64,000 nucleotides of DNA from Siniperca chuatsi. Its lineage: Eukaryota > Chordata > Actinopteri > Centrarchiformes > Sinipercidae. Positions 1,910 through 62,422 of this stretch are shown piece by piece. The notes beneath the pieces are model-generated. The model did not search any database. It was not told the DNA's origin and saw only the letters and a program-made list of their open reading frames with translations. Both the position numbers and the translations under genes were made by a program. The stretch lies in contig NC_058063.1 of the NCBI RefSeq assembly GCF_020085105.1, positions 6,234,501-6,298,500 on the forward strand. The letters are read 5' to 3'. The stretch's first letter is position 1. Every line of letters starts with the position of its first letter.

Positions 1910-3335
1910 CTATCTGGTGGCAGCATACACAACATTTGACTCCAGCTGCTTCTCTGATGCAGGCCTTCTGCTGCTTTTTGCTTTTGGGTGGAAACTCAGC
2001 GCTGCATAGTTCAGGGCATCAGAGACCAGGTTCTGCAAATAAAACTATATATAGTCACTCATCTCACATGGCTGAGTTTGTGAGAAAACATAAAATCATT
2101 AAATGACAAATGACTTGAACCAGACAACGTATAAAAATAGACTTTGATCAATCTTAATCTCAGGTTACCTCACTGTGTGGTGGATTCTGTCCCTCTTTAG
2201 GAGCTAAATGACAGAAACAGTATCTGGTCAGTTAATTGTTCAAAAAATATTGCAGTTAATGCTTTTTGACAAACAGGAAGTTCTGCATTTGCAAACGTTT
2301 GTATTTGTAACTTTAATACAAACATGTAAGTACCTGTATGAAGCTTCCTGATTTTGACAAGCAGACCGATGATGACTATAATGAAGAAAATAATCAGAGC
2401 ACCCAGGATCACACTCGTCAGATTTGTTATTCCATCAAACGTTTCTACGAGAAAGATCATTAAGTTAGACTCCGTTTTCCCTTTAGAGACTTGAGACCTG
2501 GGTAAAATTTAAATGGACCAAACTGAATTTTGCACAATGAATGAAATCTTTAGGAGAATGTTGCTTTCACATTTGCTGTCCACGTCATCATGTGGCTCAT
2601 CGCTGCCTTTTAATGAAATTTTGATAGCTTTGTTATTCCAAATGAAATTCAACTTTTGTAAAGTATTCTACCTCCTGTGGGTTGAGATAAGTCCTTATTT
2701 TGACAGTAACTGAAAAGGGCAAATATGTGTTTCTTTCCAATCAAAATACAGTCAAGACTTTAAACAATCTTACCTTGAACCTTTAGATATGTCGCACTGA
2801 CAATGACTGAGTTTCCATCTGAGTTAAATCCACAGAAATACAGTCCAGAGTCAGATAAATCCACTTGTTTGATCTTGAGAAAGAGGGTAGTGGTGTTGGA
2901 TGTCATATTAAATTTGCCATTTTGATATCCATCACAGAATGAAGCATTGGCATCAGAGCTGACCATAGAGGAGATGCAGCTGACGTTGGGTCTGTTGGAC
3001 AGTCTGAACCAGAGGATGTGAGAAGGTGAACTGGTAAAGTTGGAACACATCAGTGTGACTTCTTCACCAGACTGGACCTCCACAGTGTGAAACTCAGAAA
3101 CTGAGACGGAGATCCAACCTGAAACAAACAACGTGAAATATATTCCCTAAACTTGTAATTCCACAGGAACCAAACAATGCATGTAAATGATGTTATCAAT
3201 GAATAGTCTACAAATTTCAGCTCTGGCAGATTACTGTACTGAAGGAAAGCTAGTGATTAAAGTATTGAGCAGAAATCGGTAGGTGTACTTACTGAAGGTA
3301 CAGAGTAAAGCTGTTATCAAGGTAAAGTTCATCAT
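1910..3335 (-). CDS. Gene A: single V-set ITIM receptor, 232 aa, 6 exons
   Basis: Type I membrane receptor with one V-set immunoglobulin domain. Exons, in order of transcription: 3293-3335, 2774-3118, 2565-2606, 2334-2444, 2169-2203, 1910-2032. The signal peptide begins [14 protein letters not shown]. The V domain has canonical Cys39, Trp51 and Cys110 plus an extra pair, Cys62 and Cys76, likely a second disulfide, and at least five N-glycosylation sequons. The 14-residue stalk is acidic with one Cys. The TM segment (about residues 152-172) has no charged residue. The tail carries an ITIM, LNYAAL, with Tyr201; Tyr228 sits in VVYAAT, which is not a canonical ITIM. There is no J-like motif and no second Ig domain. 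The stalk exon uses a GC donor rather than GT. The family is recognised as a teleost V-set inhibitory-type receptor, comparable in layout to NITR, DICP or CD300-like proteins; ligand and exact family name are unknown. Confidence 0.85.
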
Positions 3336-3339
3336 TGTG

Positions 3340-3470
3340 CGTACAGTATGACTGCACCACTGCAATGTTTGTAACTGAACTGTGCTCCAGTAAGAGTGGT
3401 CTCAACGTAAAGAGGCGGAGAGTTTTTTCGTTCATCCAGCTGCTCAGACTGACAATATAAAAGCTTTCAG
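3340..3470 (-). promoter_or_regulatory. Conserved upstream block of gene A
   Basis: The roughly 130 bases 5' of the start codon are kept in A, C and D and, more loosely, in G-L. The block includes a GC-rich CCGCCTC-type site on the minus strand (about 3412-3419; the core recurs in G-L) and an AT-rich site with CTTTTATA (about 3455-3462). This is a likely proximal promoter. The transcription start cannot be fixed from sequence alone. Confidence 0.4.
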
Positions 3471-3479
3471 GAAAATAGT

Positions 3480-4994
3480 TGCAAGTTAATAGCTCCAAGG
3501 AGAATGGATATTATTATCTTTGAGAACACTTTAGATCATCTAGATACTGTTTTAGCAGTTGTTTAGAAGTCTACAAAATATGCATCAGTCTATAGAAGTC
3601 TATACAGTATAAGGCAGTGTAGTCTTTGATGTTCTTTGCTTTCTTCAGCTGTTTTTATGCTATATCAGGATACCTCATACAGTAGTGTGTTATTACACAC
3701 ATATCCAGCAGACATTTTAACTGAACGCTTATGCATTCATTGGAGTAGCTGTTGACACATCACTCCATAGAGGTTTAACCCGACTGTGTGTATTATGTTG
3801 AGCCGTAGATATATATATATCATGTCTAGTTACCACAGGCAAAGTCAGAAGCTGTGGTTATATTGTCATACAATTTGTGGTTGTTTTTTGTTTTTTTCAG
3901 TCTACTTAACCCCTGGTTAGCCAAGTTTTATGAGTGAGAGATGCATAACTGATAACGTAGCATGACACAGTCTATTGTGACCTACAGTTTTATATACCTC
4001 GATCAAGAGTTGTGACGAAACCAGAAGGAACTATGTTTTTTTACGAGTCCTAAAATTAAACACACAGTTATTTGTTCATCCATGTGATTTGATGTCATGC
4101 TCCAGCAAATCTCTAAAAATATATCAAAGCCAGTAAATTTCAAATTAAAATCTTATTCTTATTTAACGAGGAACAATATTTATATCTATTGTTAACCTGA
4201 ACCTTAAAAATGATATGACATTGTGCTGTACTGTAGTAACTTCAGTCATAGTATTGGAAAACATTTTTGATCATATTCGAATTGTAATTCCCACAGTTTA
4301 CCTAAGAATGCCTTTGAAAATCTGCATTTCGTTTGGTATTTTATAAACTGCTACAAATGATCTAAATAAGGATAAATTAAATGAACTTGTGCAGTGATGC
4401 TAATTCAGTTCAATTCAATTTTAATTATATAGCGCCAATTCATAACAAATGTTATTGCAAACCTGCTACAGTAGCTCAAAAAAGTGCACATTGGCATGAT
4501 GTTTGCTTGACTATAATATACACTCAGTAGAAGTTGATTAAATGATTGTATCAATAATAGCAGTTTAAATCTTACCTGGCCAATGATAGTTATAGGATTA
4601 ATGTTTGCAAGGCTTAGTAGGTTCAAATGCATCTCACAGTGGAGATGGATGGAACTTCACCTGCTGTGGTTTTGCTGTGATCTGTAATGTCTAAAAAATG
4701 TGCAGCCTTTAGCAGAGCAAATGCTTCAATATGAGACTGTGCGAGTGTCACCTTGCAGCGGGCATCTTTTCACAAGAAAGCAGTGATGTGAGTTTGTGCG
4801 AGTATTGAGTCTGTGATGAGGGAAGCAGTGACACAGTTTGAGACAGATTTACCACTAACAAGATGTTCAACAATCACATTTCTACAAATACAAAAATATC
4901 TTCACTTTATAAAGTCATTTTATTCTTGAACATGAACAGCCTTTGTTGTGTGTGGTTATGATGCAGAGAGCTTCTCCTGGTTGAGACCTTATTA
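3480..4994. other. Intergenic spacer between A and B units
   Basis: No gene is seen. The spacer is repeated with small differences at 9230-10930 and 16300-18005, so it is part of the tandem unit. A short piece of the LINE 3' end ('atatagcgccaattcata' type) sits near 4405-4440 and recurs at 10315 and 17395. The distal 3' repeat occupies about 4640-5000. Confidence 0.6.
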
Positions 4995-5008
4995 ATGATA
5001 CAGATATT

Positions 5009-5246: not shown

Positions 5247-5320
<74 letters not shown>

Positions 5321-5377
5321 AGAGAAAGAGCTTTTGAAAGGGAGAGAGAGAGAGGTTTAGAGAGAGAGAGAGGTTTT

Positions 5378-5440
<63 letters not shown>

Positions 5441-5972: not shown

Positions 5973-5974
5973 AG

Positions 5975-6642: not shown

Positions 6643-7795
6643 TCAACATGATAACGCATCAGTTCCACTCTGAGCTGCTGTTCCAGATGTTTCCTGAGTC
6701 TTTCTGGTGGCAGCATACACAACATTTGGCTCCAGCTGCTTCTCTGATGCAGGCCTTCTGCTGCTTTTTGCTTTTGGGTGGAAACTCAGCGCTGCATAGT
6801 TCAGGGTATCAGAGACCAGGTTCTGCAAATAAAACTATATATAGTCACTCATCTCACATGGCTGAGTTTGTGAGAAAACATAAAATCATTAAATGACAAA
6901 TGACTTGAACCAGACAACGTATAAAAATAGACTTTGATCAATCTTAATCTCAGGTTACCTCACTGTGTGGTGGATTCTGTCTCTCTTTATGAGCTAAATG
7001 ACAGAAACAGTATCTGGTCAGTTAATTGTTCAAAAAATATTGCTGCTAATGCTTTTTGACAAACAGGAAGTTCTGCATTTGCAATCGTTTGTATTTGTAA
7101 CTTTAATACAAACATGTAAGTACCTGTATGAAGCTTACTGATTTTGACAAGCAGACCGATGACGATTATAACGAAGAAAATAATCAGAGCACCCAGGATC
7201 ACACTCGTCAGATTTGTTATTCCATCAAACGTTTCTACGAGAAAGATCATTAAGTTAGACTCCGTTTTTCCTTTAGAGACTTGAAACCTGGGTAAAATTT
7301 AAATGGACCAAAGTGAATTTTGCACAATGAAAGAAATCTTTAGGAGAATCTTACTTTCACACTTGCTGTCCACGTCATCATGTGGCTCATCGCTGCCTTT
7401 TAATGAAATTTTGATAGCTTTGTTATTCCAAATTAAATTAAACTTTTGTAAAGTTTTCTACCTCCTGTGGGTTGAGATCAGTCCTTATTTCAACAGTGAC
7501 TGAAAAGGGCACATATGTGTTTCTTTCCAGTCAAAATACAGTCAAGACTTTAAACAATCTTACCTTGAACCTTTAGATATGTCGCACTGACAATGACTGA
7601 GTTTCCAGCTGAGTAAAATCCACAGAAATACAGTCCAGAGTCAGTTAAATCCACTTGTTTGATCTTGAGAAAGAGGGTAGTGGTGTTGGATGTCATATTA
7701 AATTTGCCATTTTGATATCCATCACAGAATGAAACATTGGCATGAGAGCTGGACATAGAGGAGATGCAGCTGATGTTGGGTCTGTTGGCCAGTCT
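6643..7795 (-). pseudogene. Copy B: receptor 3' half (half V exon to tail)
   Basis: Exons in transcription order: the 3' part of the V exon (7564-7795, starting at the residues after the conserved Trp-Phe-Arg), stalk 7355-7396 with a normal GT donor, TM 7124-7234, linker 6959-6993, tail 6643-6822. The signal exon and the first third of the V exon are missing: at 7795/7796 the V exon runs straight into intron 5 of copy C. The tail keeps the ITIM LNYAAL. Its usual TAG stop after YAATR has become AAG, so the tail runs 19 residues further to a TGA. Its stalk, TM, linker and tail exons are open and could serve as 3' exons for copy C. Confidence 0.8.
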
Positions 7796-7896
7796 ATGGC
7801 TGAGTTTGTGAGAAAACATAAAATCATTAAATGACAAATGACTTGAACCAGACAACGTATAAAAATAGACTTTGATCAATCTTGATCTCAGGTTAC

Positions 7897-9063
7897 CTCA
7901 CTGTGTGGTGGATTCTGTCCCTCTTTATGAGCTAAATGACAGAAACAGTATCTGGTCAGTTAATTGTTCAAAAAATATTGCTGCTAATGCTTTTTGGCAA
8001 ACAGGAAGTTCTGCATTTGCAAACGTTTGTATTTGTAACTTAAATACAAACATGTAAATACCTGTATGAAGTTTCCTGATTTTGACAAGAGGACAGATGG
8101 CGATTATAACGAAGAAAATAATCAGAGCACCCAGGATCACACTTGCTAGCTTTGTTATTCCAACAAACGTTTCTACGAGAAAGATCATTAAGTTAGACTC
8201 CGTTTTCCCTTTAGAGACTTGAGACCTGGGTAAAATTTAAATGGACCAAAGTGAATTTTGCACAATGAATGAAATCTTTAGGAGAATGTTGCTTTCACAC
8301 TTGCTGTCGACGTCATCATGTGGCTCATCGCTGCCTTTTAAAGAAATTTTGATAGCTTTGTTATTCCAAATGAAATTCAACTTTTGTAAAGTATTCTACC
8401 TCCTGTGGGTTGAGATCAGTCCTTATTTCAACAGTGACTGAAAAGGGCACATATGTGTTTCTTTCCAATCAAAATACAGTCAAGACTTTAAACAATCTTA
8501 CCTTGAACCTTTAGATATGTCGCACTGACAATGACTGAGTTTCCATCTGAGTTAAATCCACAGAAATACAGTCCAGAGTCAGTTAAATCCACTTGTTTGA
8601 TCTTGAGAAAGAGGGTAGTGGTGTTGGATGTCATATTAAATTTGCCATTTTGATATCCATCACAGAATGAAGCATTGGCATGAGAGCTGGGCATAGAGGA
8701 GATGCAGCTGACGTTGGGTCTGTTGGCCAGTCTGAACCAGAGGATGTGAGAGGTAAACTTGGTAAAGTTGGAACACATCAGTGTGACTTATTCACCAGAC
8801 TGGACCTCCACAGTGTGAAACTCAGAAACTGAGACGGAGATCCAACCTGAAACAAACAACGTGAAATGTATTCCCTGAACTTGTAATTCAACAGGAACCA
8901 AACAATGCATGTAAATGATGTTATCAATGAATAGTCTGCAAATTTCAGCTCTGGCAGATTACTGTTCTAGAGGAAAGCTAGCGATTATTGGATTGAGCAG
9001 AAATTGGTAGGTGTACTTACTGAAGGTACAGAGTAAAGCTGTTATCAAGGTAAAGTCCATCAT
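7897..9063 (-). pseudogene. Copy C: receptor 5' part lacking its tail exon
   Basis: Exons in order: signal 9021-9063 (MMDFTLITALLCTF), V 8502-8846, stalk 8293-8334 with a GC donor, TM 8062-8172 with a GTATTT donor, linker 7897-7931. The tail exon is missing because the DNA 3' of the linker is fused to the V exon of copy B. The V domain has the usual four cysteines, but codon GAA before VTLMC is TAA (8788-8790), an in-frame stop near the start of the V domain. Linker phase (0) matches the tail exon of B, so a C-to-B spliced mRNA would be frame-compatible but for that stop. Confidence 0.8.
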
Positions 9064-14712: not shown

Positions 14713-16138
14713 CTATCTGGTGGCAGCATACACAACATTTGACTCCAGCTGCTTCTCTGATGCAGGCCTTCTGCTGCTTTTTGCTTTTGGGTGGAAACTC
14801 AGCGCTGCATAGTTCAGGGCATCAGAGACCAGGTTCTGCAAATAAAACTATATATAGTCACTCATCTCACATGGCTGAGTTTGTGAGAAAACATAAAATC
14901 ATTAAATGACAAATGACTTGAACCAGACAACGTATAAAAATAGACTTTGATCAATCTTGATCTCAGGTTACCTCACTGTGTGGTGGATTCTGTCCCTCTT
15001 TATGAGCTAAATGACAGAAACAGTATCTGGTCAGTTAATTGTTCAAAAAATATTGCTGCTAATGCTTTTTGGCAAACAGGAAGTTCTGCATTTGCAAACG
15101 TTTGTATTTGTAACTTTAATACAACCATGTAAGTACCTGTATGAAGCTTCCTGATTTTGACAAGCAGACAGATGATGACTATAATGAAGAAAATAATCAG
15201 AGCACCCAGGATCACACTCGTCAGATTTGTTATTCCATCAAACGTTTCTACGAGAAAGATCATTAAGTTAGACTCCGTTTTCCCTTTAGAGACTTGAGAC
15301 CTGGGTAAAATTTAAATGGACCAAAGTGAATTTTGCACAATGAATGAAATCTTTAGGAGAATCTTGCTTTCACACTTGCTGTCGACGTAATCATGTGGCT
15401 CATCGCTGCCTTTTAAAGAAATTTTGATAGCTTTGTTATTCCAAATGAAATTCAACTTTTGTAAAGTATTCTACCTCCTGTGGGTTGAGATCAGTCCTTA
15501 TTTCAACAGTGACTGAAAAGGGCACATATGTGTTTCTTTCCAATCAAAATACAGTCAAGACTTTAAACAATCTTACCTTGAACCTTTAGATATGTCGCAC
15601 TGACAATGACTGAGTTTCCAGCTGAGTAAAATCCACAGAAATACAGTCCAGAGTCAGTTAAATCCACTTGTTTGATCTTGAGAAAGAGGGTAGTGGTGTT
15701 GGATGTCATATTAAATTTGCCATTTTGATATCCATCACAGAATGAAGCATTGGCATCAGAGGTGGACATAGAGGAGATGCAGCTGGCGTTGGGTCTGTTG
15801 GCCAGTCTGAACCAGAGGATGTGAGAGGTAAACTTGGTAAAGTTGGAACACATCAGTGTGACTTCTTCACCAGACTGGACCTCCACAGTGTGAAACTCAG
15901 AAACTGAGACGGAGATCCAACCTGAAACAAACAACGTGAAATATATTCCCTGAACTTGTAATTCAACAGGAACCAAACAATGCATGTAAATGATGTTATC
16001 AATGAATAGTCTGCAAATTTCAGCTCTGGCAGATTACTGTTCTAGAGGAAAGCTAGCGATTATTGTATTGAGCAGAAATTGGTAGGTGTACTTACTGAAG
16101 GTACAGAGTAAAGCTGTTATCAAGGTAAAGTCCATCAT
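14713..16138 (-). CDS. Gene D: single V-set ITIM receptor, 232 aa, 6 exons
   Basis: Closest relative of gene A. Exons: 16096-16138, 15577-15921, 15368-15409, 15137-15247, 14972-15006, 14713-14835. All junctions keep frame. The signal peptide is MMDFTLITALLCTF. The V domain keeps Cys39, Cys62, Cys76 and Cys110, and ends in ATYLKVQG. The stalk exon has a GC donor (GCAAGA), a better match to a GC-AG intron than in A or C. The TM segment lacks charge. The tail has ITIM LNYAAL and ends YAATR at TAG. Differences from A are scattered substitutions, including one stalk Asp to Tyr. Role inferred: inhibitory leukocyte surface receptor. Ligand unknown. Confidence 0.85.
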
Positions 16139-18959: not shown

Positions 18960-20592
18960 GATCAGGGCTACATTTTAAGTTGGCCTCTGAGTCTTTCTAG
19001 TTGCAGAATTAACAAGGCTGAGTTTCCACTGCTTTCTTGTTGTTTGATGGAAAATCAATGCTGCATCTTTCAGAGTCCAGATTCTGCAAATTAGAGTGAG
19101 GTAATTATATTAAATATATGAGCTTACCATATTTACATATAACAATTGACTAATCATGAGCTGAAGTGATTTAACTAGCTTGTACACTATAGAACATATA
19201 AAAGTAAATCTTAAAAATGGATTGACATGTTATCATTGTGGATTTTCTTCTTCATTAGCAGTTAAGTGACAGTCTGATCTGGTACTTATTCATAAAAGCT
19301 GCCATTAATACTTTTTTTTTCTCAATTATTTTTTCGGGCATTTTTGCCTTCATTTGATAGAGACAGCTGCAGTAAAGGGCAGGAGGTTGGAATCGAACCC
19401 ATGCTGCTGCAGTAAAGACTCAGCTTTGAGCTGCCGGGGCGCCCCTGTTAATACATTTTGATTACTAAGCAGGAAGTTTTTGATTTAACCGTGATACTGA
19501 CAACAGGATATTGACAAGATGATGTGCAAAAGCAACATAAATAAAATAGAGGGCAGCACTCAAACAGTACCTGTCTGAAGTTGCCTCATTTTGACAATGA
19601 TGACCTTAGTGAGAACAACAGTCACACCGCTCAGAATCACACTCATCAGGTTTATTATTTCACCAGGCTCCTCTACAAGAAAGATGATTAGATTAGACTC
19701 TCTGCTTTTCTTTTGAACAATAAACAAATGGCTTATTTTGTGCATATTTTTGAGGAAACTATTTATTATCCTTTACTGGCTTGAGATCTGGCTAATAATA
19801 AGGTGGATAAATGACCATCAATTGACAAATTCTAATCTGTATAATAAATCTTAATGAGACGCAGAGAGAACGTTTTAGCCTCCTTCCAAGTCGTCATGAG
19901 GTTCACCACTGCCTTTACAGATGATGATGAAAAAATCATATTTTGACAATATTCCATCATATTTTAATCATGTTGAAATAACACATATGTTATCCTTTGT
20001 GTTAGCAGCTAAATGACACTTGACAACATTCTCACCTTGAACTTTTAAATAAGTTGCTCTGACAATTACTGGGTATCTGTTTATGTAAAATCCACAAAAA
20101 TACAACCCAGAGTCCGAAAAATCCACATGATTGATTTTTATGGAGACAGTGGAGATGTTGGATGTCATTTCAAATTTGCCATTTTTAACTCCATTGCAGA
20201 ATGAAGCGGACTCATTAGAATTGTACATGGAGGAAATACATCAGGACTGATTTCTGTTGGCCAGTGTGAACCAGATTATCTGAGTGGGAGAACTGGAAAA
20301 GTTGGAGCACAGCAGTGTGACTTGCTGACCAGACTGGACCTCCACAGTCTGAGACTCAGAAACTGAGACAGAGATCCAGCCTGAAATAAACAGCAGAGAG
20401 ATTTAGTTCTCAGCTGATAATGCAACAAACAGATAACAATGCCCCTAAACAACTGTAGCAGCAACTAGATTCAGTTTTGCTTGTGGTTATGAAACTAAAC
20501 ACAAGTTAGCCATGAAGCACATTTTACAAATAAGTCAATGCTAGTACTTGGCTGCAGAGAAGTAAAGCTGTTATTATAGTAAAGCTCATCAT
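18960..20592 (-). pseudogene. Copy E: receptor pseudogene
   Basis: All receptor parts can be seen but several are broken. The signal exon (start about 20592, MMSFTIITALLLC) has lost the GTAAGT donor by a small deletion. The V exon (20036-20380) has the right length and most V-set residues, but an in-frame TGA (20241-20243) sits just before the extra Cys. The stalk exon (about 19885-19915) is degenerate. The TM exon (19571-19672) is three codons short. The tail exon (about 18980-19090) lacks eight bases after its first Asp-Ser codons and so is out of frame. The V subtype belongs to array half 1 (ATYLKVQG end); the tail is nearest the [12 protein letters not shown] class. Confidence 0.8.
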
Positions 20593-23385: not shown

Positions 23386-23975
23386 TCAGAGTTGCAGTTC
23401 CAGTTTCTTCCTGCTGGCAGCATAAATAACATGAGCTTCCACTTCCCTCTCTGATGCAGGCCTCCTGCTTCTTATTGCTGTTGAATACAAAGTCAGTGCT
23501 GCGTCCTTCAGGTCATCAGAGTCCAGATTCTCTAAACAAAAGTATTTACAGTCACATCTTACACAGCTGAGTCGGTGAGAAGAAATAAAATATAAATTAC
23601 CCGAAGTGATTCCAGCAGCTTTTAAACCATAAAACCTAAAAGAATAAAATTTGACCTTAATTTAACCTTAATCTTAATTCCATGTCAGAATTGGATTCAC
23701 CTCTCTCTGTTGTGGATTCTGATTCATTATCAGCTAAAAGACAGAAACAGTATATCTGGTCAGTTAACTGAAACATTGCAGTTCATGAAATTTTCCAAAC
23801 AAGAAGCTTTGGATTTTTTGATCATATTAAGATAACTTAATAAAACAAAATATAAAACAGCTTACAACAAGGACCTGCCTGAAGTTTGCTGACGTTGGCA
23901 GCCATACCAGTGTCAGTCACAGCAACCCAGTATCATATGGGCTTGTTTTTCCATGAGGATTTTCTACAGGAGATA
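23386..23975 (-). pseudogene. Relic F: receptor 3' end without V domain
   Basis: An open tail exon (23386-23529) follows an AG acceptor and encodes the ITIM-less class: it starts [12 protein letters not shown], includes HVIYAAS and ends in LELQL before TGA. A linker exon is recognisable at about 23703-23733. A TM-exon remnant lies at about 23880-23975 and has decayed beyond translation. No stalk, V or signal exon follows before gene G. The tail exon is better preserved than the rest, so an exon donor role by readthrough or exchange is possible but unproven. Confidence 0.7.
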
Positions 23976-25995: not shown

Positions 25996-27316
25996 CTATC
26001 TAGTAGCAGAATACACAACATTCGGCTCCACTTCAAAATTCACTGCTGCGTAGTTCAGGTAATCAGAGCCCAGATTCTGATATTTTGAGAAAAACTAAAT
26101 AATAAGGGTAAGATGTAATTTTAAATGATGAAACAAATAAAAGTAAATTATAACACTTGGTTCACCTCACGCTGTTGTGGATTCTGTTCTTCACTGGCAG
26201 CTGAATGACAGAGACAATACGTCGAATCAGGTGACAAACATGAACATTTGTAGTCTTTGAACATATTCACACAACTTTAGGGAAGTGACAAAACAATAAA
26301 CCAAACACAACATAGAAAGAGTAGCTTTAATTAAAGTACCTGTCTGAAGTTTCCTGTTTTTAACAACCAGACCAACGACGACCATTACGAGGAAAACAGT
26401 CAGACCGCCCAGGATCACACTCATCAACATTGTTATTCTGTCACACTCTGCTAAAAGAAAGATAAAATAATTACACTCTATTTTCGCTTCACTGGCTTAA
26501 AAAGTGTACAATGAAAGTAATCTTAAAGAGAATCTTACATTTAGACTTTGTGTCAACGTCTTCCTGAGATTCATCACTGCCTTTTAACAAAATTAAGATA
26601 CATTTAATCTTGATTTTACTTGGAAAAAATAGTGTCACACTCCTTTGTCATGACAATGATTAAATAGCCACATATGTTCTTATAGGGCAATTATTAAACT
26701 AGCAAACACAGAAAAACATAAACAGAAGAATTGACACCACAGGATTTTATAATAATCTTACCTTCAACATTTAAATGTATCACACTTAAAATTGACCGTC
26801 CTGCTGTGTAAAATCCGCAGAAATACAGCCCAGAGTCAGAAAAATCCACTGTCTTAATTTTAAGAGAGACAGCGGAGGTGTTGGATCCCATTTCAAATTT
26901 TCCATTTTGAAATCCATCAAAGTAGACAGGACTGCTGGTAGAGCTGATCATAGTGGAAATGGAGCTGGCCTTGGTTCTGTTGACCACTCTGAACCATAAT
27001 GCCAAAGAGTCAGATTCGGGCGTCTTAGAGCACAGCAGCGTGGCTTCTTCACCAGGCTGGACATTCACAGTCTGAGACTCAGAAGCTGAGACAGAGATCC
27101 AGCCTGAAACAAACAGCAGACGACAAGAGACTTTTTTCAAAGTAACATAAAGAGAAACAATACCTCATAATTAATGTAATGATAAGTAACTCATTTTAGT
27201 TCTGCTGGTTTAGAGAATTCAACAAAGTTTGCAAAGAAGTTGATGAGAGTTATTCAGTGGCAGTACTTACTGATGCTGCAGAGAATCAAAGCTGTTATCA
27301 AGGTGAAGTTCATCAT
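25996..27316 (-). CDS. Gene G: divergent V-set ITIM receptor, 218 aa
   Basis: Six open exons: 27271-27316, 26762-27103, 26509-26580 region (stalk, 42 bases), 26340-26450, 26166-26200, 25996-26076. The signal peptide is [15 protein letters not shown]. The V domain keeps Cys40, Trp52 and the F-strand Cys in GLYFCGF, but the two extra cysteines of its relatives are both replaced (Ser63 and Phe77). The stalk Cys is also Ser, while a new Cys appears at the start of the TM exon (SECDR). The TM exon encodes [17 protein letters not shown] without charge. The tail is short, lacking the basic RPKAKR-type spacer, but keeps ITIM LNYAAV (Tyr201) and ends YSATR. Founder or early branch of array half 2 by V subtype. 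Inhibitory role inferred. Confidence 0.85.
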
Positions 27317-32381: not shown

Positions 32382-34193
32382 CTATCTGGTGGCAGCATAA
32401 GTAACATTTGGCTCCAGCTCTCTTCTTTTTGCTTTTGGTCGAAATGCCACTGCTGCGTAGTTCAGGTCATCAGAGCCCACGCTCTGTGAAAAGATTCGAC
32501 ATGATTTCAATTCCCACAGTATAGCCCAACAGATACTGGATATTAAATAAATATTAATTAATATTGAAATTTGGCCAATATTTATATATAAATACATTCG
32601 ATTAACAAACGTTTCTGATATGTCTCCCTTAAATTTATTATGTAAAGGATTGTGATAAAGATATTAACTGAGCAGGACATTTCACAGTTGAAAAATAAAC
32701 TTGTTAGTGCTCTCTAATGGACAAAGTAGACACGGTTTCCAAAGTACCTCAAAAATCATTTTGGCTTTTCTTGACTGCAATTGCTTGTTACTTATCGGCC
32801 CATGTATACGCAATACAAATATGTACACATATGTATTGATATATAGAAATACGCCAATATTTCAGGGACAAGCTACAGTAATATTAGCTGATACAATATT
32901 CTGTGTTTTTTTCGGTCAGGCTCTATCAAACAATATACATATAAGTAAGTGTTAAAACTGAATTCACCTCACTTTGCTCTGGATTCTGTTCTTCTTCATC
33001 AGCTAAATGACAGAAACAAAATATCTGGTCAGTTCATTGATCATTTGGTCTTTGGTAAACCAGGAGTTTGGCATTTGGCATTCTAGCATATTGATGCAGT
33101 TGTAAGAGAATTTCCAGTGGCAACAAAACCAAATATAAGTTAGGCAGTAGCTCTGAAAAGTACCTGTCTTAAGTTTCCTCTTTTTAACAACCAGACCAAT
33201 GATGACCATTACAAGTAAAACAGTCAGACCGCCCAGGATCACACTAGTCAGCTTTTCTTTTCCGTCAGACTCTTCTACAAGAAAGATCATTATATTAGAC
33301 TCTGTTTTTCCTTTTGAGACTTGAGACCTGGCTAAAATTAAAATGGACGAAACTGAATTTAGCTGAACTGTTTTACCTTCAAACATTTGATAATCTGCAC
33401 AATGAAAGAAATATTTGTGAAAATCTTACTTTGACACTTGCTGTCCACATCATCATGTGGCTCATCGCTGCCTTTTGATAAAATTAAGATAAATTTAGTC
33501 TTGATTTTAAATTTGCAGATTTACATCAAAATTATGTGAAGCCATTTTGTTGCATACATGCTGATGTTTTAAGACAATTATTAAAATCTTTTTTGCAATA
33601 TAAGCAGAAAAAACATAACCAAATAATGGGAATCAAGAGACAGAAAAGACTTTACAATGCTCTTACCTCTAATGTTTAAATGTATTACACTGAAAGTTGG
33701 ACGTCCATGAGCATAAAATCCACAGAAATACAGTCCAGCGTCAGATAAATCCACTTGTTTGATTTTGAGAAAGAGGGTAGAGATGTTAGATCTCATTTCA
33801 AATTCTCTGTTTTCATATCCATCACAGAATTCAGCATTGCTGTTAGACTTGTACATAACAGAGATACAGCTGATGTTGGTTCTCTGGACAAGTCTGAACC
33901 AGAATGTTACAGCGTCATATTTGGAAATGTTGGAGCACAGCAGTGTGACTTCTTCACCAGACTGGACCTCCACAGTCTGAGACTCAGAAACTGAGACAGA
34001 GATCCAGCCTGAAACAAACAGCAGACCACAAGAGACTTACTTGTTATAAAGTAACATGGTGGTAAACAATATCTCTTAATAAAAGTTAGCAAGTGAGTAA
34101 TAAGTCAATAAGTTTGAAGTTGAGAGTAATACAATGGCAGTACTTACTGAGGCTGCAGAGAATGAAAGCTGTTATCAAGGTGAAGTTCATCAT
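32382..34193 (-). CDS. Gene H: V-set ITIM receptor, 225 aa, 6 exons
   Basis: Exons: 34148-34193, 33667-34008, 33430-33471, 33164-33274, 32968-33002, 32382-32483, all frame-consistent with GT-AG introns. The signal peptide is [15 protein letters not shown]. The V domain is subtype 2, ending [10 protein letters not shown], with Cys40, Trp52, Cys63, Cys77 and the F-strand Cys. Stalk [13 protein letters not shown]. The TM segment is [17 protein letters not shown] with flanking basic KKRK. The linker is [12 protein letters not shown]. The tail has ITIM LNYAAV (Tyr201), a spacer [11 protein letters not shown] shorter than in A or D, and ends VTYAATR. Its V exon appears identical at the base level to that of J. 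Inhibitory signalling inferred from the ITIM. Confidence 0.88.
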
Positions 34194-34496: not shown

Positions 34497-35882
34497 GCTT
34501 AAAGAAAGTGTCTGGACTGACTGACTGAATAACAGCAAGCTGCACAAGCTGAGGTCATACTCATGTTAATGTTAAGACACAGCAAAGTGCTTCATGTCTA
34601 GTTGTACATCAGATACAGTTGGAAACAAGTGCTTCCAAACAGGCCCAGGGAGAAACAACATAAAGGCAACTGCAATCTTAAATCATCTGATGCATGAAAC
34701 ATGAACATTTTGTTAAAGCCACTCCATCCTTTGCTCTTAGTGCACTTTTGTTAATGGGAGTGCATCAGAAACTTAAAAAATATTGATAAAAATTCTCCCT
34801 TTTTGCAAGTGATGATCTGAAAATTGTGTATTTCAAAGCTGATCCAAAGATTTCTGATCCTGAAGATTTGGATACATAATGACATAATTGTTGTACTTGC
34901 ATTTTGCTAGATATGACATGCTTTACCGATCTTTTGCGGTAACATTACGAGCTTGAAGTTACTGCAAAAAGGTTAGTTTGTATCGTAGCTAAGTGGTTAG
35001 CATTACTAATTAGCGTTTTTTACGTGTCTGCTTTGTGGTTTTCAGTGATGTTAGGTTGATGTTATTACAAAAATATTAGCTTTTGTCATGGCTCGGTAAA
35101 CTTAGTAATCACTAATGTTAGTTAAGTAATAAAACCATTTTGCACCCTGGATTTCCCTTAAATTTTCCTATTAGCTTTCAAAGTTAGCCTGTCGAAATCA
35201 CTAAACAATGTTTCAGCATATATTTTGTATCTGCTTGTTCACACGCTTCATTGAAGCTATATATACTTATATTGAGTAAAATATTCAAACCCAAGATACC
35301 TTTTTTATGGCTGCACCAATGTCTTGAGCATAATTTTATACGCATTTCCATGTAATTCAGCCTGATATGTTTGGTATCTTTGGAGGTTCCGCGGGTTTGA
35401 ACAAATCTTGACTGCATTTGATCCCGCATTAGGAACCTTAGGGTGAAAGTTTAATTGGGCTGCTCCTCTACTAGCACACCTGTCACCTGTGCGTGTAAGA
35501 TAGATAACGCTAACAGTTACATTTATATTAATGCATAAGATGAACACTGCCAAATTATTAGAAAGCTATAGCTTGTGTAGCTATATGGTGATATCAGGGC
35601 TGTGGTGGCTCTGTTGTATTTTTGTAAGTGAGCAATGACGTAGGCTAACATGAACATTCATTGCTGTCTTCAACCTTGAACTTGAAAAATAAAACCCAAA
35701 GTCACAGGTCTGCCTGCTCTCCTGCCTAATATCTCTTTACCGGACTTTTGTCGTCTTCCTTTACAGCTCCAATTCCCAGTTGTGTCCCTGTCAGTCCCAG
35801 GACTGTGTCAAGTTCATTGTATTACTTACCATGCACTATGTCTATGTTGAACAATCAGTTTGGGCCAAACAGCATAGAGAGT
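34497..35882. repeat. Duplicated block upstream of H, paralogous to 44094-45405
   Basis: Together with intron 2, the V exon and the signal exon of H (from about 33500) this block is nearly identical to 43095-45405 around J, over about 2.4 kb. Differences seen are a few substitutions and small gaps (for example about 40 bases near 35070-35110 absent from the J copy). At the right it abuts the tail exon of gene I at about 35882. No independent gene is supported within it. Confidence 0.8.
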
Positions 35883-37653
35883 TTTTGATGTCACTGCTGT
35901 GTAGTTCAGGTCATCATAGCCCACATTCTGTAAAAAGAGTATTTACAGTCTTAATGCGGTGACTTGACATGATTTTAATTCCCACAGTATAGCCTGACAG
36001 ATATTGGATATTAAATAATATTTGGTATTTATGTTTAAATATATTTGATTAACAAATGTTTCTGATACCCCTCCTTTAAATTTGTTCTGTAAAGGATTGT
36101 GACAAGATATTTACTGAGCAGGACATTTCACAGTTGAAAAATAAACTTGGTAGTGCTCTCTAATGGACAACGTAGACACAGTTTCCAAAGTACCTCAAAA
36201 ATAATTTTGGGTTTTCTTGACTGCAATTGCTTGTTAATTTTCAGCCCATATATATGGAACACAAATATATACATATATGTGATTACATACAAATAAACCA
36301 ATATTTCAGGGACAAGCTACAGTAATATTAGCTCATACAATATTCCGGCTGTTTTGCGGTCAGATTCTATCAAACAATATACATATAAGTAAATGTTAAA
36401 ACTGAATTCACCTCACTTTGCTCTGGATTCTGTTCTTCTTCATCAGCTAAGTGACAGAAACAAAATATCTGGTCAGTTCATTGATCATTTGGTCTTTGGT
36501 AAACCAGGAGTTTGGCATTTTTCCAGCACACTGACACAACTAAGGATATTTCCACTAGTAACAAAACCAAATATAAGTTAGACAGTAGCTCTGAAAAGTA
36601 CCTGTCTGAAGTTTCCTGTTTTTAACAACCAGACCAATGATGACCATTACGAGGAAAACAGTCAGACCGCCCAGGATCACACTCATCAGCTTTGCTATTC
36701 CGTCAGACTCTTCTACAAGAAAGATCATTATATTAGACTCTGTTTTTCCTTTTGAGACTTGAGACCTGGCTAAAATTAAAATGGACGAAACTGAATTTAG
36801 CTGAACTGTTTTACCTTCAAACATTTGATAATCTGCACAATGAAAGAAATCTTTGTGAAAATCTTACTTTGACACTTGCTGTCCACATCATCATGTGGCT
36901 CATCGCTGCCTTTTGATAAAATTAAGATAAATTTAGTCTTGATTTTAAATTTACAGATTTACATCAAAATTATAAAAGCCACTTTGTTGTATACATTATG
37001 TTGTTTTAAGACAATTATCAAAATATTTTCTGCAATATACACAGAAAAAGACTGGGTAATGGGATTCAAAAGTCAAAAAAAGACTTTACAATCCTCTTAC
37101 CTCTAATGTTTAAATGTATTACACTGAAAGTTGGACGTCCATGAGAATAAAATCCACAGAAATACAGTCCAGCGTCAGATAAATCCACTTGTTTGATTTT
37201 GAGAAAGAGAGTAGAGGTGTTAGATCTCATTTCAAATTTTCCATTTTGATATCCATCACAGAATGAAGCATTGCTGTTAGACCTGACCATAACAGAGATA
37301 CAGCTGATGTTGGTTCTCTGGACAAGTCTGAACCAGAATGTTACAGCGTCATATTTGGAAATGTTGGAGCACAGCAGTGTGACTTCTTCACCAGGCTGGA
37401 CCTCCACGGTCTGAGACTCAGAAGCTGAGACAGAGATCCAGCCTGAAATAAACAGCAGATGACAAGAGACTTACTTGTTATAAAGTAACATGGCGGTAAA
37501 CATCTCTTAATAAAAGTGATTAATAAGCAAATAAGTTTTACATTGGCTTAAACATACAATAATAAACTTAGCAATGAAGTTGAGAGTAATTCTATGGCAG
37601 TACTTACTGAGGCTGCAGAGAATGAAAGCTGTTATCAAGGTAAAGTTCATCAT
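35826..37653 (-). CDS. Gene I: V-set ITIM receptor with a replaced tail, 225 aa
   Basis: Exons: 37608-37653, 37101-37442, 36868-36909, 36602-36712, 36412-36446, 35826-35927. V subtype 2 with all five key residues (Cys40, Trp52, Cys63, Cys77, F-strand Cys). [19 protein letters not shown]. The tail starts [14 protein letters not shown] and so keeps an ITIM-type LNYTAV. After that the normal spacer and YAATR end are gone: the exon runs into the U-block DNA at about 35882-35889 and reads [19 protein letters not shown] to a TAA. The total length happens to equal that of H. The normal 3' UTR, poly(A) signal and conserved 3' module are missing, so expression may be altered. It could be an expressed chimera or a young pseudogene. 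Confidence 0.75.
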
Positions 37654-42349: not shown

Positions 42350-43789
42350 TCAGTTCCACTCTGAACCACTCTGAGTCTTTCTGCTGGCAGCATAAATAAC
42401 ATGAGTTTCCACTTCTCTCTGTGATGCAGGCCTCCTGTTTCTTATTGTTGTTGAATAGAAACTCAGTGCTGCATCTTTCAGGTCATCAGAGTCCAGATTC
42501 TGGAAAGAGTCCACACAGTTACACACGTCAAATAGCTGAGTTTGTGAGAAAAACTAACTCATGACTTGACCAAATTTAACATATTAAAACATATGATAGT
42601 AAACGATGAAACTTAATTCACCTCACGCTGTTGTGGATTCTGTTCTTCACTGACAGCTGAATGACAAAGACAATACGTCGAATCAACCAACAAACCATAC
42701 TGACACAACTTTAGAGAAGATGTGAACCCCCCCAACGTACAAACCAAATGCAAGATAGAAAAGTACCTGTCTGAAGTTTCCTGATTTTAGCAACCAGACC
42801 AATGATGACCATTACAAGGAAAACAGTCAGACCGCCCAGGATCACACTCGTCAGCTTTTCTTTTCCGTCAGACTCTTCTATAAGAAAGATCATTAAGTTA
42901 GACTCTGTTTTTCCTTTAGAGACTTGAGACCTGGTTAAAATTAAAATGGATGAATTTAGCTAAACTGTTTTACCTTCAAACATTTGATAATCTGCACAAT
43001 GAAAGACATCTTTATGAATATCTTACTTTTACACTTGCTGTCGACGTCATCATGTGGCTCATCGCTGCCTTTTAATGGAACGAAGATAAATTTAGTCTTG
43101 ATTTTAAATTTGCAGATTTACATCAAAATATGTGAAGCCATTTTGTTGCATACATGATGATGTTTTAAGACAATTATTAAAATATTTTTTGCAATATAAG
43201 CAGAAAAAACATAACCAAATAATGGGAATCAAGAGACAGAAAAGACTTTACAATCCTCTTACCTCTAATGTTTAAATGTATTACACTGAAAGTTGGACGT
43301 CCATGAGCATAAAATCCACAGAAATACAGTCCAGCGTCAGATAAATCCACTTGTTTGATTTTGAGAAAGAGGGTAGAGATGTTAGATCTCATTTCAAATT
43401 CTCTGTTTTCATATCCATCACAGAATTCAGCATTGCTGTTAGACTTGTACATAACAGAGATACAGCTGATGTTGGTTCTCTGGACAAGTCTGAACCAGAA
43501 TGTTACAGCGTCATATTTGGAAATGTTGGAGCACAGCAGTGTGACTTCTTCACCAGACTGGACCTCCACAGTCTGAGACTCAGAAACTGAGACAGAGATC
43601 CAGCCTGAAACAAACAGCAGACCACAAGAGACTTACTTGTTATAAAGTAACATGGTGGTAAACAATATCTCTTAATAAAAGTTAGCAAGTGAATAATAAG
43701 TGAATAAGTTTGAAGTTGAGAGTAATACAATGGCAGTACTTACTGAGGCTGCAGAGAATGAAAGCTGTTATCAAGGTGAAGTTCATCAT
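42350..43789 (-). CDS. Gene J: V-set receptor without ITIM, 241 aa
   Basis: Exons: 43744-43789, 43263-43604, 43027-43068, 42767-42877, 42622-42656, 42350-42499. The signal and V exons match H exactly in protein. The TM segment is [17 protein letters not shown]. The linker is [12 protein letters not shown] and the tail starts [15 protein letters not shown]: the ITIM Asn-Tyr is Lys-Asp, so Tyr201 is Asp. The remaining tyrosines (207, 228 in HVIYAAS) do not fit the ITIM or ITSM consensus. The tail ends SGSEWN. No charged TM residue suggests pairing with an ITAM adaptor, so signalling mode is open. J is a recombinant, with the 5' half like H and the 3' half like L; the switch lies between the TM exon and intron 2 (about 42960-43095). 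Confidence 0.88.
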
Positions 43790-47820: not shown

Positions 47821-47828
47821 AAACTACA

Positions 47829-49690: not shown

Positions 49691-49924
49691 GGGCATGCGC
49701 GGGATCTGCTATTCTCCACCTGTCCACCAGATGTGCTCAGACTTCATCTATACCTGTTCCATTTTTTCCTTTTCCTGATTTTCTGCCTGATATCTGCTGC
49801 CTGTGTTTTATAACCTGTTGCCTGTTTATGATCCGTTTGCCTGCCTTGCCCCTCTGGATTTTTCTGGCTCGGCCTTTTCGTGCCTGACTGTAAGCCTGTT
49901 AATTTGAACATTGGTTAGGGGTCA

Positions 49925-51542: not shown

Positions 51543-53409
51543 CTATCTGGTGGCAGCATAAGTAACATTTGGCTCCAGCTCTCTTCTTTTTGCTTTTGGT
51601 CGAAATGTCACTGCTGCGTAGTTCAGGTCATCAGAGCCCACATTCTGTGAAAAGAGTGTTTACAGTCTTAATGTGGTGACTTGACATGATTTTAATTCCC
51701 ACAGTATAGCACGACAGATACTGGATATTAAATAAATATTAAATAATATTTGGTATTGATATTTATGTATAAATATATTTGATTAACACATGTTTCTGAT
51801 ACCCCTCCTTTAAATTTGTTCTGTAAAGGATTGTGACAAGATATTTACTGAGCAGGACATTTCACAGTTGAAAAATAAACTTGTTAGTGCTCTCTAATGG
51901 ACAACGTAGACACAGTTTCCAAAAAGTACCTCAAAAATAATTTAGGGTTTTCTTGACTGCAATTGCTTGTTACTTGTCAGACCATATATGCAAGACAAAT
52001 ATGTACGTATATATGAATACATATAAATACACCAATATTTACTACACTAGTACTTTACTATATACTACAGTAATATTAGCTGATAAAATATTCCGTCTGT
52101 TTTTCGGTCAGGCTCTATCAAACAATATACATATAAGTAAACGTTAAAACTGAATTCACCTCACTTTGCTCTGGATTCTGTTCTTCTTCATCAGCTAAGT
52201 GACAGAAACAAAATATCTGGTCAGTTCATTGATCATTTGGTCTTTGGTAAACCAGTAATTTGGCATTTTTCCAGCACACTGACACAACTTTAAGGGAATT
52301 TCCACTAGTAACAAAACCAAATATAAGTTAGGCAGTAGCTCTGAAAAGTACCTGTCTGAAGTTTCCTGTTTTTAACAACCAGACCAATGATGACCATTAC
52401 GAGGAAAACAGTCAGACCGCCCAGGATCACACTCGTCAGCTTTGCTATTCCGTCAGACTCTTCTACAAGAAAGATCATTATATTAGACTCTGTTTTTCCT
52501 TTAGAGACTTGAGCCCTGGCTAAAAATAAAATGGACGAATTTAGCTAAACTGTTTTACCTTCAAACATTTGATAATCTGCACAATGAAAGAAATCTTTGT
52601 GAAAATCTTACTTTTACACTTGCTGTCCACGTCATCATGTGGCTCATCGCTGCCTTTTGATCAAATGAAGATAAATTTAGTCTTGATTTTAAATTAGCAG
52701 ATTTACATCAAAATGATGTAAAGCCATTTTGTTGCATACATGATGTTGTTTTAAGTCAATTATCAAAATGTTTTTTGCAATATATGCAGAAAAAAAACGG
52801 GTAATGGGAATCAAAAGACAAAAAAAGACTTTACAATGCTCTTACCTCTAATGTTTAAATGTATTACACTGAAAATTGGACGTGCATCAGCATAAAATCC
52901 ACAGAAATACAGTCCAGCGTCAGATAAATCCACTTGTTTGATTTTGAGAAAGAGAGTAGAGGTGTTAGATCTCATTTCAAATTTACCATTTTTATATCCA
53001 TCACAGGCTGAAGCATTGCTGTTAGACCTGATCATGACAGAGATACAGCTGATCTTGGTTCTCTGGACAAGTCTGAACCAGAATGTTACAGTGTCATATT
53101 TGGAAATGTTGGAGCACAGCAGTGTGACTTCTTCACCAGACTGAACCTCCACAGTCTGAGACTCAGAAACTGAGACAGAGATCCAGCCTGAAACAAACAG
53201 CAGACCACAAGAGACTTACTTGTTGTAAAGTAACATGGCGGTAAACAATATCTCTTAATAAAAGTTAGCAAGTGAGTAATAAGTAAATAAGTTATACGGC
53301 GGGTTAAACATACAATAATAAACTTAGCAATGAAGTTGAGAGTAATTCTATGGCAGTACTTACTGAGGCTGCAGAGAATGAAAGCTGTTATCAAGGTAAA
53401 GTTCATCAT
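51543..53409 (-). CDS. Gene K: V-set ITIM receptor, 225 aa, 6 exons
   Basis: Exons: 53364-53409, 52846-53187, 52612-52653, 52352-52462, 52160-52194, 51543-51644, all open and frame-consistent. V subtype 2 ([10 protein letters not shown] end) with Cys40, Trp52, Cys63, Cys77 (in SACDGY rather than FCDGY) and the F-strand Cys. Stalk with one Cys. [19 protein letters not shown], no charge. Tail [14 protein letters not shown] with ITIM LNYAAV (Tyr201), spacer [11 protein letters not shown], end VTYAATR. Its introns, 3' UTR and 3' module are closest to H; its upstream flank is closest to I. Predicted inhibitory receptor. Confidence 0.88.
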
Positions 53410-58435: not shown

Positions 58436-58439
58436 CATT

Positions 58440-58855
58440 AACTTGGCATAAAGCATCTGTACTGTTGAGAGATTGCCATGAATGGGCTTAAAGCATGATC
58501 TAACATAAATTCAGAGAGGCCTGGGTTGTGGGTGTCAGGTGGGTGGATTCACCAAGAAGACTATAAAGTTGGATTTTGACAATTTTAAGTACACAGTGAA
58601 TGAACACTTTAACAACATGTGTTATGTAGGAGCTGGGTCTTGGAGGATGATTGTAGGATATGTGTAATGGATGGGCAATAACAAATCCACGTTTTACCCT
58701 TGATTGGCGCATCTTTGCTCACCAATCCACAGAACAACAATAAATACCTCAGTATTCACCAATTTCAGAATACACAATTTGTGTCAGTCTTGCCTGTATG
58801 GGGTATAACAGCGGATATCTTCACAGGGTACCTCTTGTGGCCACTTACATACATA
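58440..58855 (+). repeat. Repeat R2, inverted relative to 63085-63480
   Basis: About 400 bases that match the reverse complement of 63085-63480. The pair brackets gene L. Family not recognised. Confidence 0.7.
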
Positions 58856-59400
58856 CATAGGTGAGAGTAAACAGCCACTTCACAAAAGACTTTATCAGCA
58901 CAGACGACGCGCTAACTCAGGATTGCAGAGCGCCGTGCATTTGCATCTAAAAGCTACAAACCACACATTTGAAGACAGTGAGGTGAAGATTCTAAGTAGA
59001 GAGAAGAGTTGGTTTGAAAAGGGTGTCAAAGAAGCCATTTTTGTGAAAAAAGAAAACCCCTCTTTGAACAGAAATGGTGGTCTGAGATTCAATCTGCCCA
59101 AAGTTTACCACAGCGTATTAGCACCTTGGTCACGCCAATCATATGCTAATCAGGTACTTAACAGTGATCAGGTAGGTGCAGCCAGAAAACAATAGGCCTG
59201 ATTACTGATTACTGGGCCATCATCATGGAAACAAAGAAGGTCAGTTTCAGGTGAAACTAGGAAGAGTAATCAACAGATACTCAGGTAGGCTCCTTCCTGA
59301 GGGCAGGGCTTAAGTAACACAGAGTAGCTTACATTTCTGAGTTCCCGGTCCATTTTTCACAGTTGAGAATGACTTCCGGACGGGAGCCGAAACGTCTTGA
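58856..59400 (+). mobile_element. Penelope-like element 3' fragment, copy 2
   Basis: Same GIY-YIG region as at 47829, with HLHLKATNHTFEDSEVKIL and GVKEAIFVKKENPSLNRN, and the same 3' tail 'gggagccgaaacgtctt'. It begins abruptly at the R2 repeat. Truncated. Confidence 0.75.
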
Positions 59401-59639
59401 TTCTGATATCACTGGGCTAGGTGTTGTAAATTGCTACAATGTATGTGCTGGCTGCTTGTTAAACCAAAGTGTCTCATTTCTATTCCTACTCATTAAATAC
59501 GATGGATGTGATGTGTGAAGGGGCCAGTATACTCCGTCAGAACTGCTGCTCGGATGGTCGAATAGCTTCATAAACCCCCTCCCCCCACACCTTTCTGACA
59601 TCTGAATGGGGGATCAATATCCGACCATTTCTGTAACTT

Positions 59640-60595: not shown

Positions 60596-60599
60596 TTCT

Positions 60600-60745
60600 T
60601 ACAGAGCTTCGATCTAACAGGCCTCATGATTCTCACATCAGCTGTGCTCAGACCACACTGTGCTGTCTCTTCCTGTCTAACAAGTGATGTGAAACTCACT
60701 CCTCCACTGCTGCAGACCTCCATCTATCTATTGTCTATTTGGACA
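60600..60745 (+). promoter_or_regulatory. Conserved 3' module, copy 9
   Basis: ACCACA (60652-60657) and TTCCTGT (60670-60676) retained, and the TATA-like part is missing, as in copy 7. It lies about 180 bases past the L stop. Confidence 0.5.
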
Positions 60746-60926
60746 GGAACCACAGTCGGATAAAATTAGGAAGACAGAGAGTGAGAGAGACATGAGAGAG
60801 AAAAACATTTGGAAAAAGATCACATATTAAGTAATTTTGATTATATGTCTTTTTTTCAGTTAGAAAATGGTAACTCCTCCCTCCACCCACAAAAGAACAC
60901 AACAGTGGATTAATATGATAAAAGCA

Positions 60927-62422
60927 TCAGTTCCACTCTGAACCACTCTGAGTCTTTCTGCTGGCAGCATAAATAACATGAGTTTCCACTTCTCTCTCTG
61001 ATGCAGGCCTCCTGTTTCTTATTGATGTTGAATACAAACTCAGTGCTGCATCTTTCAGGTCATCAGAGTCCAGATTCTGTAAAGAGTCCACACAGTTACA
61101 CACGTCAAATAGCTGAGTTTGTGAGAAAACTAAATCACAACTTGACATGATTATACCACCTTTTAAAGTATTAAAACAAATAATAGTAAACCTGATTCAC
61201 CTCACGCTGTTGTGGATTCTGTTCTTTGTTGGCAGCTGAATGACAGAGACAATACATCGAATCAGGTGACAAACATGACATTTTGTATTTTTACAACATA
61301 TTGACACAACTTTAGAGAAGATATGACCCCCAACTTACGAACCAAATGCAAGATACAAACAGCAGTTTTCAATAAGTACCTGTCTGAAGTTTCCTGATTC
61401 CAACAACCAGACCAATGATGACCATTACAAGGAAAGCAGTCAGACCGCCCAGGATCACACTCTTCAGCTTTGCTATTCCATCAGACTCTTCTACAAGAAA
61501 GATCATTATATTAGACTCTGTTTTTCCTTTAGAGACTTGAGACCTGGCTACAATTAAAATGGACCAAACTGAACTTAGCAAAACTGTTTTACCTTCAAAC
61601 ATTTAATAATCTGCACAATGAAAAAAATCTTTGTGAAAATCTTACTTTTACACTTGCTGTCCACGTCATCATGTGGCTCATCGCTGCCTTTTGATCAAAT
61701 GAAGATAAATTTAGTCTTGATTTTTAAATTTACAGATTTACATCAAAATGATAAAACGCATATATATTGTTTTAAGACAAATATCAAAATCTTTTTTGCA
61801 ATTTACGCAGAAAAATAATGGGAATCAAAAGACAGAAAATACTTTACAATCCTCTTACCTTTAATGTTTAAATGTATTACACTGAAAATTGGACGAGCAT
61901 TTGCATAAAATCCACAGAAATACAGTCCAGAGTCAGATAAATCCACTTGTTTGATTTTGAGAAAGAGAGTAGAGATGTTAGATCTCATTTCAAATTTTCC
62001 ATTTTGATATCCATCACAGGCTGAAGCATTGCTGTTAAACCTGACCATAACAGAGATACAGCTGATCTTGGTTCTCTGGACAAGTCTGAACCAGAATGTT
62101 ACAGTGTCATATTTGGAAATGTTGGAGCACAGCAGTGTGACTTCTTCACCAGACTGGACCTCCACAGTCTGAGACTCAGAAGCTGAGACAGAGATCCAGC
62201 CTGAAACAAACAGCAGACCACAAGAGACTTACTTGTTGTAAAGTAACATGGCGGTAAACAATATCTCTCAATAAAAGTTAGTAAGTGAGTAATAAATAAA
62301 TAAGTTTTACAGCGGCTTAAACATACAATAATAAACTTAGCAATGAAGTTGAGAATAATTCAATGGCAGTACTTACTGAGGCTGCAGAGAATGAAAGCTG
62401 TTATCAAGGTAAAGTTCATCAT
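60927..62422 (-). CDS. Gene L: V-set receptor without ITIM, 241 aa
   Basis: Exons: 62377-62422, 61859-62200, 61646-61687, 61380-61490, 61201-61235, 60927-61076, all open with standard donors. V subtype 2 with Cys40, Trp52, Cys63, Cys77 and the F-strand Cys; strand end [29 protein letters not shown]. Linker [12 protein letters not shown]. The tail starts [15 protein letters not shown], with Asp in place of ITIM Tyr201, and ends [17 protein letters not shown], nearly as in J. No charged TM residue. It may be a decoy or adhesion form, or may signal by another route. V exon closest to K; tail closest to J. Confidence 0.88.

Follow-up and report, generated by a model that had tools for sequence, protein, structure and literature searches.

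Origin and signalling ends of a V-domain receptor array

To which receptor family do the V-domain genes of a 64,000-nucleotide stretch of the Siniperca chuatsi genome (hereafter the window; C22:6234501-6298500, contig NC_058063.1) belong, and how did their signalling ends come to differ? The window holds 11 V-exon copies (A to K), all on the minus strand, from position 1910, the last base of the stop codon of copy A, to 62422, the ATG of copy K. They form part of a one-V type I receptor family found in a single 223-kb tract that abuts a cluster of NITR genes, and this family is probably a divergent, V-only branch of the NITR locus, with V modules recombined onto tails that either carry or lack an immunoreceptor tyrosine-based inhibitory motif (ITIM). 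NITRs are candidate fish counterparts of natural killer (NK) receptors.

Genomic location of the family

To place the array we extended the reading 30 kb upstream and 200 kb downstream of the window. This gave 4 and 23 further V copies or fragments, respectively, which together with the 11 in the window make 38 in a tract at C22:6223911-6446533; many of the V exons beyond the window are open. The original prediction, made from the window alone, described a single-orientation array, which is true of the window (11/11 minus) but not of the whole locus, where 33 copies or fragments lie on the minus strand and 5 on the plus strand. At its upstream end the tract adjoins genes matching RBM4B (2dnq, 3.6e-28) and TIFA (6l9w, 2.5e-26). 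At the other end, the last array copy stops at 6446533 and the first exon of a classical NITR cluster (C22:6449499-6562037) lies 3 kb on. The neighbouring NITR genes have a V and a six-Cys I domain, and several end in FGNGTKLDF. Five copies (6461, 6474, 6480, 6489 and 6496 kb) have V and I contiguous, three (6449, on the plus strand, 6455 and 6467 kb) have them apart, and a tail with LHYAA[V/L/I] lies behind 4 of the 6 NITRs scanned.

We then searched the genome (718.8 Mb, 65 contigs) at the protein level with the V of copy H and scored 150 of the 189 candidates. Forty of the 47 matches lie in the array tract, at an identity of at least 53%; outside it there are 7, the top two of which are V exons of the neighbouring NITRs, at 27-28%. 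Among the candidates scored, the receptor family was found only in this single tract. None of ten pattern matches on viral contigs was a relative.

Gene layout

Eight copies (A, D, F, G, H, I, J and K) were modelled with six exons each: leader, V, stalk, transmembrane (TM), cyt1 and cyt2. The leader exon measures 46 nt in F to K and 43 nt in A and D, the V exon 342-345 nt, the stalk exon 42 nt (that of F from a separate reading) and cyt1 35 nt. Every modelled gene has one V and none has an I domain. Ten frames, a set that did not include copy I, were scanned with the Pfam V-set model, and 8 scored above cut-off; the two below were the truncated B and part of E. A common layout in eight open copies, as originally predicted, was recovered in the modelled phases (1,1,1,1,0 in 8/8, with non-canonical sites in A, D and I), but GT/AG is present at all junctions in only four copies, G, H, J and K. 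Free in-frame exon swapping would accordingly hold cleanly for these four, because only they have canonical sites throughout.

The membrane segment is uncharged, as had been proposed: none of the eight copies has a mid-membrane charge, and in three a Lys at the cytoplasmic edge falls inside the best 21-residue TM window. The short ITIM tail is present in six of the eight (A, D, F, G, H and J, as LNYAAL, LNYAAV or LNYTAV) but not in I and K, whose tails read LKDAAL, with no tyrosine; these two have neither an ITIM nor a charged TM. The tail of copy H (35826-35927) keeps LNYTAV and diverges in the rest, with 41-56% identity to the other tails.

Exchange of front and back modules

Copies G and I are nearly identical in their 5' part (flank 98.5%, leader and its intron 98.9%, V 100%), while their tails share 72.1%; the tail of G is instead 96.7% identical to that of J, and the tail of I 98.0% identical to that of K. 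The same V exon therefore stands before an ITIM tail in G and an ITIM-less tail in I. In triplet tests, in which informative sites of seven triplets were shuffled 20000 times, 0/20000 shuffles were as extreme in six triplets (including two for G and one for I) and 1/20000 in the remaining one (H). The 5' tree joined G and I (100/99) and rejected the pairing of I with K (p 1.2e-10), whereas the 3' tree joined I and K (100/99) and rejected G with I (p 6.7e-83). The two ends of these genes are incongruent. A similar mosaic lies outside the window at 6306 kb: its V is 98.0% identical to that of F and its tail equals that of K in 150/150 nt, while the V exons of K and the 6306-kb gene share 78.1%. 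This gene may be broken, as its alignment contains no cyt1.

The exchange of exon modules between neighbours that the original prediction envisaged is thus real in genomic DNA (G/I, I/K and the 6306-kb gene). Cross-gene splicing was dropped as the source of the mosaics since they are present in the genome itself and extend over introns and flanks. The pattern indicates that promoter-leader-V modules were rejoined with tail modules by recombination in genomic DNA; the exchange junctions may also be assembly errors.

If the genes are expressed, as we presume, the V domain would bind a ligand and the uncharged TM would anchor the receptor. By analogy with the ITIM receptor class, LNYAA[V/L] in cyt2 (LNYTAV in H), once phosphorylated, would recruit SH2 phosphatases and dampen the cell. 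The family would expand by block duplication and by recombination of promoter-leader-V modules onto an ITIM or an LKDAAL tail, and the same V could thereby belong to an inhibitory receptor or to one that does not inhibit (decoy or retuned). Because they carry the same V exon with and without an ITIM tail, G and I are a natural pair for testing the effect of the tail on one ligand specificity, and the array would be a record of signalling rewired by recombination at such loci.

Comparable arrangements are known; here and below, published families are described from the accessible parts of the cited papers. CD300A and CD300C have similar ectodomains, different signalling ends and evidence of gene conversion (PMC12447643). 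The array likewise joins similar ectodomains to different signalling ends; unlike in that primate pair, which has another V type and an activating partner, the ITIM-less tail of the array has no known activating feature. In salmon NILT1 and NILT2 the Ig domains are 96% identical and the cytoplasmic parts 67% (PMC3022915), which resembles the near-identical V with a diverged cytoplasmic part seen here.

Second tail exons

Several F-type genes have a second, ITIM-less tail exon 1.4-2.8 kb downstream of the ITIM tail. That of copy F (23386..23733, minus strand; cyt1 23733-23698, tail exon 23529-23386, LKDAAL) lies 2.5 kb downstream of its ITIM tail and recurs behind F-type genes outside the window. 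We inspected eight second tails and aligned seven. Mean identity was 97.7% in the second tail exon; the sequence between the tails averaged 84.1%, and the stretches immediately before and after the exon 82.2% and 72.6%, in flanks that are partly not truly homologous. Five second tails are open and similar (F, 6323, 6340, 6354 and 6384, the last in a gene whose V is itself frame-broken), 6367 is altered, 6404 is frame-broken, and the eighth (6334) has a tail that is open and K-like. In 2/7 (F and 6354) the second tail is preceded by a separate cyt1, and the first cyt1 of a gene could join the second tail in phase 0.

It is conceivable, though we think it unlikely, that F-type genes have two alternative last exons, one with and one without an ITIM, both in phase 0; the choice of last exon would then decide whether one V yields an inhibitory or a silent/decoy receptor, and in daughter genes such as G and I recombination would fix one tail or the other. 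The 23.4-kb second tail is possibly a relic of a deleted gene, given that second tails recur inside duplicated blocks, with E-type fragments behind several of them. Their near-invariance would fit recent homogenisation as well as constraint.

Relationship to NITR and other families

To assess kinship we built a 32-row tree from 8 family V domains, antibody, T-cell receptor (TCR) and NITR V domains of the same genome and a few others. The eight sampled family V domains formed one clade (99/99). A hidden Markov model (HMM) of these eight copies, scored against the 24 other rows, placed six NITR V rows on top (39.2-30.2 bits), followed by TRB (28.8). In a PDB search, six NITR10/11 sequences ranked 3-8 among the 60 of 236 matches listed. 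Ranks 1-2 went to multi-domain antibody constructs, in which a domain taken singly reaches about half that score or lower, and NITR10/11 gave the top single-domain score among five alignments compared. No CD300, TREM or NKp44 chain was among those 60 matches; pIgR, which we take to be CD300-like, was present at 29-30 bits. DICPs have D1/D2-type Ig domains.

The array resembles NITRs, receptors of one or two Ig domains with an ITIM or a charged TM, in its N-terminal V domain, type I topology, uncharged TM, ITIM tail and organisation as a bony-fish multigene cluster. Its best matches beyond the tract are two V exons of the classical NITR genes that it adjoins. It differs from NITRs in lacking the J motif and the six-Cys I domain, and in having a separate short stalk exon, its own V clade and, in roughly half the copies read, a C-x13-C pair. 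The medaka NITR paper names a one-V NITR form in which J is optional; its search criterion was the six-Cys I domain, with all V genes of the cluster regions also taken in, and a J (FGXGTXLXV) or J-like end of V or I is described in nearly all NITRs (PMC2442602). Taken together, we infer that the array V is NITR-like and NITR-linked, with NITR descent neither shown nor rejected.

An inhibitory teleost family distinct from both NITR and NILT, and merely located beside the NITR cluster, seems to us a rather unlikely alternative. Its own V clade among the sampled copies, the C-x13-C pair in 16/30 readable copies, the separate stalk exon and the missing J motif would suit such a family, but NITR genes lie 3 kb away and supply the closest V exons outside the tract, union with the NITR V is not rejected, and one-V NITRs with an optional J are already described (PMC2442602). 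The original suggestion of an under-described inhibitory family is accordingly retained in part: the V clade is distinct and most copies have an inhibitory layout, but the array adjoins the NITR cluster and its layout is a known one. In zebrafish, the genes expressed by NK-like cells include many uncharacterised ones of the V-set type (PMC5340972). We found no account of the array in the literature; as subscription papers were largely beyond the search, unpublished status is not claimed.

The layout does not set the family apart, contrary to what had been proposed. NILT genes have six exons (L, Ig, connecting peptide, TM, Cyt1, Cyt2) with introns 1-4 in phase 1 and intron 5 in phase 0, the same order and phases as in the array, and Ig exons in phase 1 occur widely in this superfamily (PMC3022915). 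The 46-nt leader exon of salmon NILTs and the 35-nt cyt1 of zebrafish NILT1 and carp NILT2 also match (PMC3022915 Table 2). Zebrafish NILTs have one ITIM, as the array tails do, and salmon NILTs have 4-5 (PMC3022915). The shared features would favour a NILT/CD300-type family, an origin that we nevertheless regard as very unlikely: by published description, the only basis on which NILT was set against the array, the salmon NILT V has CX3C, CX6C or CX7C where the array has CX13C, if any, and the NILT connecting-peptide exon measures 81-204 nt compared with 42 nt here (PMC3022915). None of the CD300, TREM or NKp44 chains was among the PDB matches listed, though pIgR was. The exon layout of the array is standard; its interest lies in the locus, the V clade of its own and the shuffled tails.

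Several results weigh against a V-only NITR-locus branch with recombined tails. In the 32-row tree the eight local NITR V rows fell in a different group from the family V (94/99); uniting family and NITR V costs 0.9 log units and is not rejected (p 0.44), and a link between the family and the NITR I domain reaches no more than 59/53. By the family HMM, 3/9 NITR V rows (26.1, 16.2 and 15.8 bits) fall below TCR rows. The reverse search with NITR10 brings up antibody V domains that are at least as close as the array V: antibody constructs and similar entries scored 37.6-57.6 bits (54 other matches listed), and the V of H 38.5 bits, scored by a different program from that listing. As predicted, a J motif, taken as [FW]GxG, is absent from 8/8 copies. 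In zebrafish, Menin neighbours the larger NITR cluster (PMC2442602); here its one match in the genome shares the contig with the array, a point in favour of the NITR reading, but is not adjacent to it (2.30 Mb, ~4 Mb away). The clades compared in the 5' and 3' tree tests were picked once the identities had been seen. To these are added the points on copy integrity and V diversification that follow.

Integrity and diversification of the copies

Copies A, D, F and I look splice-damaged or odd. In A and D the stalk donor is GC and AC replaces the AG of the TM acceptor, in I the same acceptor is AA, and in F intron 3 would measure just 43 nt. An in-frame substitute splice pair (donor AA/GTGT, acceptor CCAG/G) can be read by eye in D and I, although it would be in phase 2 and lose the stalk Cys; none was seen by eye in A. 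Together with the broken B, C and E and with a ratio of nonsynonymous to synonymous substitution (dN/dS) near 1 in the V of five close copies (0.44-1.32 in nine informative pairs), this could describe a mostly dead or dying array of block-duplicated pseudogenes with little function. We consider that improbable: four copies (G, H, J and K) are intact and canonical at every splice junction, numerous V exons beyond the window have open frames, and V differences cluster in loops. Among G, H, J and K, 9/19 variable V positions are in loops (23 of 113 sites; p 0.003), and between A and D 7/10 differences (24 of 114 sites; p 0.0006), with loop borders drawn after the variable sites had been seen. For A and D the V dN/dS is 2.5, on as few as 12.5 versus 1.5 changes, and positive selection on V is not shown by dN/dS.

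Of the 30 copies readable at both places, 16 have the full C-x13-C pair, a putative C'-C'' disulfide, 13 lack it and 1 has half of it, a count that leaves out the upstream copies and sets fragments aside. Repeated co-loss of the pair was considered and dropped; the copies that lack it are all of one V type, maybe through a single event.

Features of the individual copies

All copies in the window are on the minus strand. Copy A (1910..3335) has its leader at 3335-3293, V at 3118-2774, stalk at 2606-2565, TM at 2501-2334, cyt1 at 2203-2169 and cyt2 at 2032-1910 (LNYAAL). Copy D (14713..16138; LNYAAL) repeats this plan with leader 16138-16096, V 15921-15577, stalk 15409-15368, TM 15304-15137, cyt1 15006-14972 and cyt2 14835-14713. 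Copy F (25996..27316; LNYAAV), whose V lacks the extra Cys pair, comprises leader 27316-27271, V 27103-26762, a stalk from 26580, a TM ending at 26340, cyt1 26200-26166 and cyt2 26076-25996.

For copy G (32382..34193; LNYAAV) the exons are leader 34193-34148, V 34008-33667, stalk 33471-33430, TM 33331-33164, cyt1 33002-32968 and cyt2 32483-32382, and for copy H (35826..37653; LNYTAV) leader 37653-37608, V 37442-37101, stalk 36909-36868, TM 36769-36602, cyt1 36446-36412 and cyt2 35927-35826. Copy J (51543..53409; LNYAAV) consists of leader 53409-53364, V 53187-52846, stalk 52653-52612, TM 52519-52352, cyt1 52194-52160 and cyt2 51644-51543. The two copies with LKDAAL are I (42350..43789: leader 43789-43744, V 43604-43263, stalk 43068-43027, TM 42934-42767, cyt1 42656-42622, cyt2 42499-42350) and K (60927..62422: leader 62422-62377, V 62200-61859, stalk 61687-61646, TM 61547-61380, cyt1 61235-61201, cyt2 61076-60927).

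Copies C and B are two broken copies fused at 6703..9063. C starts with a leader at 9063 and a V at 8847-8500 with one stop, continues with stalk, TM and cyt1, and runs into B. The V of B (7795-7562) is missing its 5' half, and B contributes the stalk, TM and cyt1 that follow as well as a tail match at 6822-6703. The fusion looks like the product of an unequal crossover, as intron-5-like sequence passes straight into the middle of the V exon of B. Copy E (18987..20592) is a pseudogene with a stop in its V (20381-20034), stops in cyt1 and a decayed tail.

Other elements in the window

Between B/C and D lies a 396-aa open frame (11971-13161, plus strand) with a DDE_3 transposase domain (Pfam 5.9e-23). 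Two related plus-strand frames at 47823-48173 and 58809-59195 share about 88% DNA identity, and the second has a weak similarity to GIY-YIG (0.0011, below cut-off); our guess is that both are remnants of a Penelope-like element. A further plus-strand frame at 49919-50464 is retroelement-like and matches the Pfam model ALKBH8_N (1.3e-10), a model that presumably often matches reverse transcriptases of long interspersed elements (LINEs).

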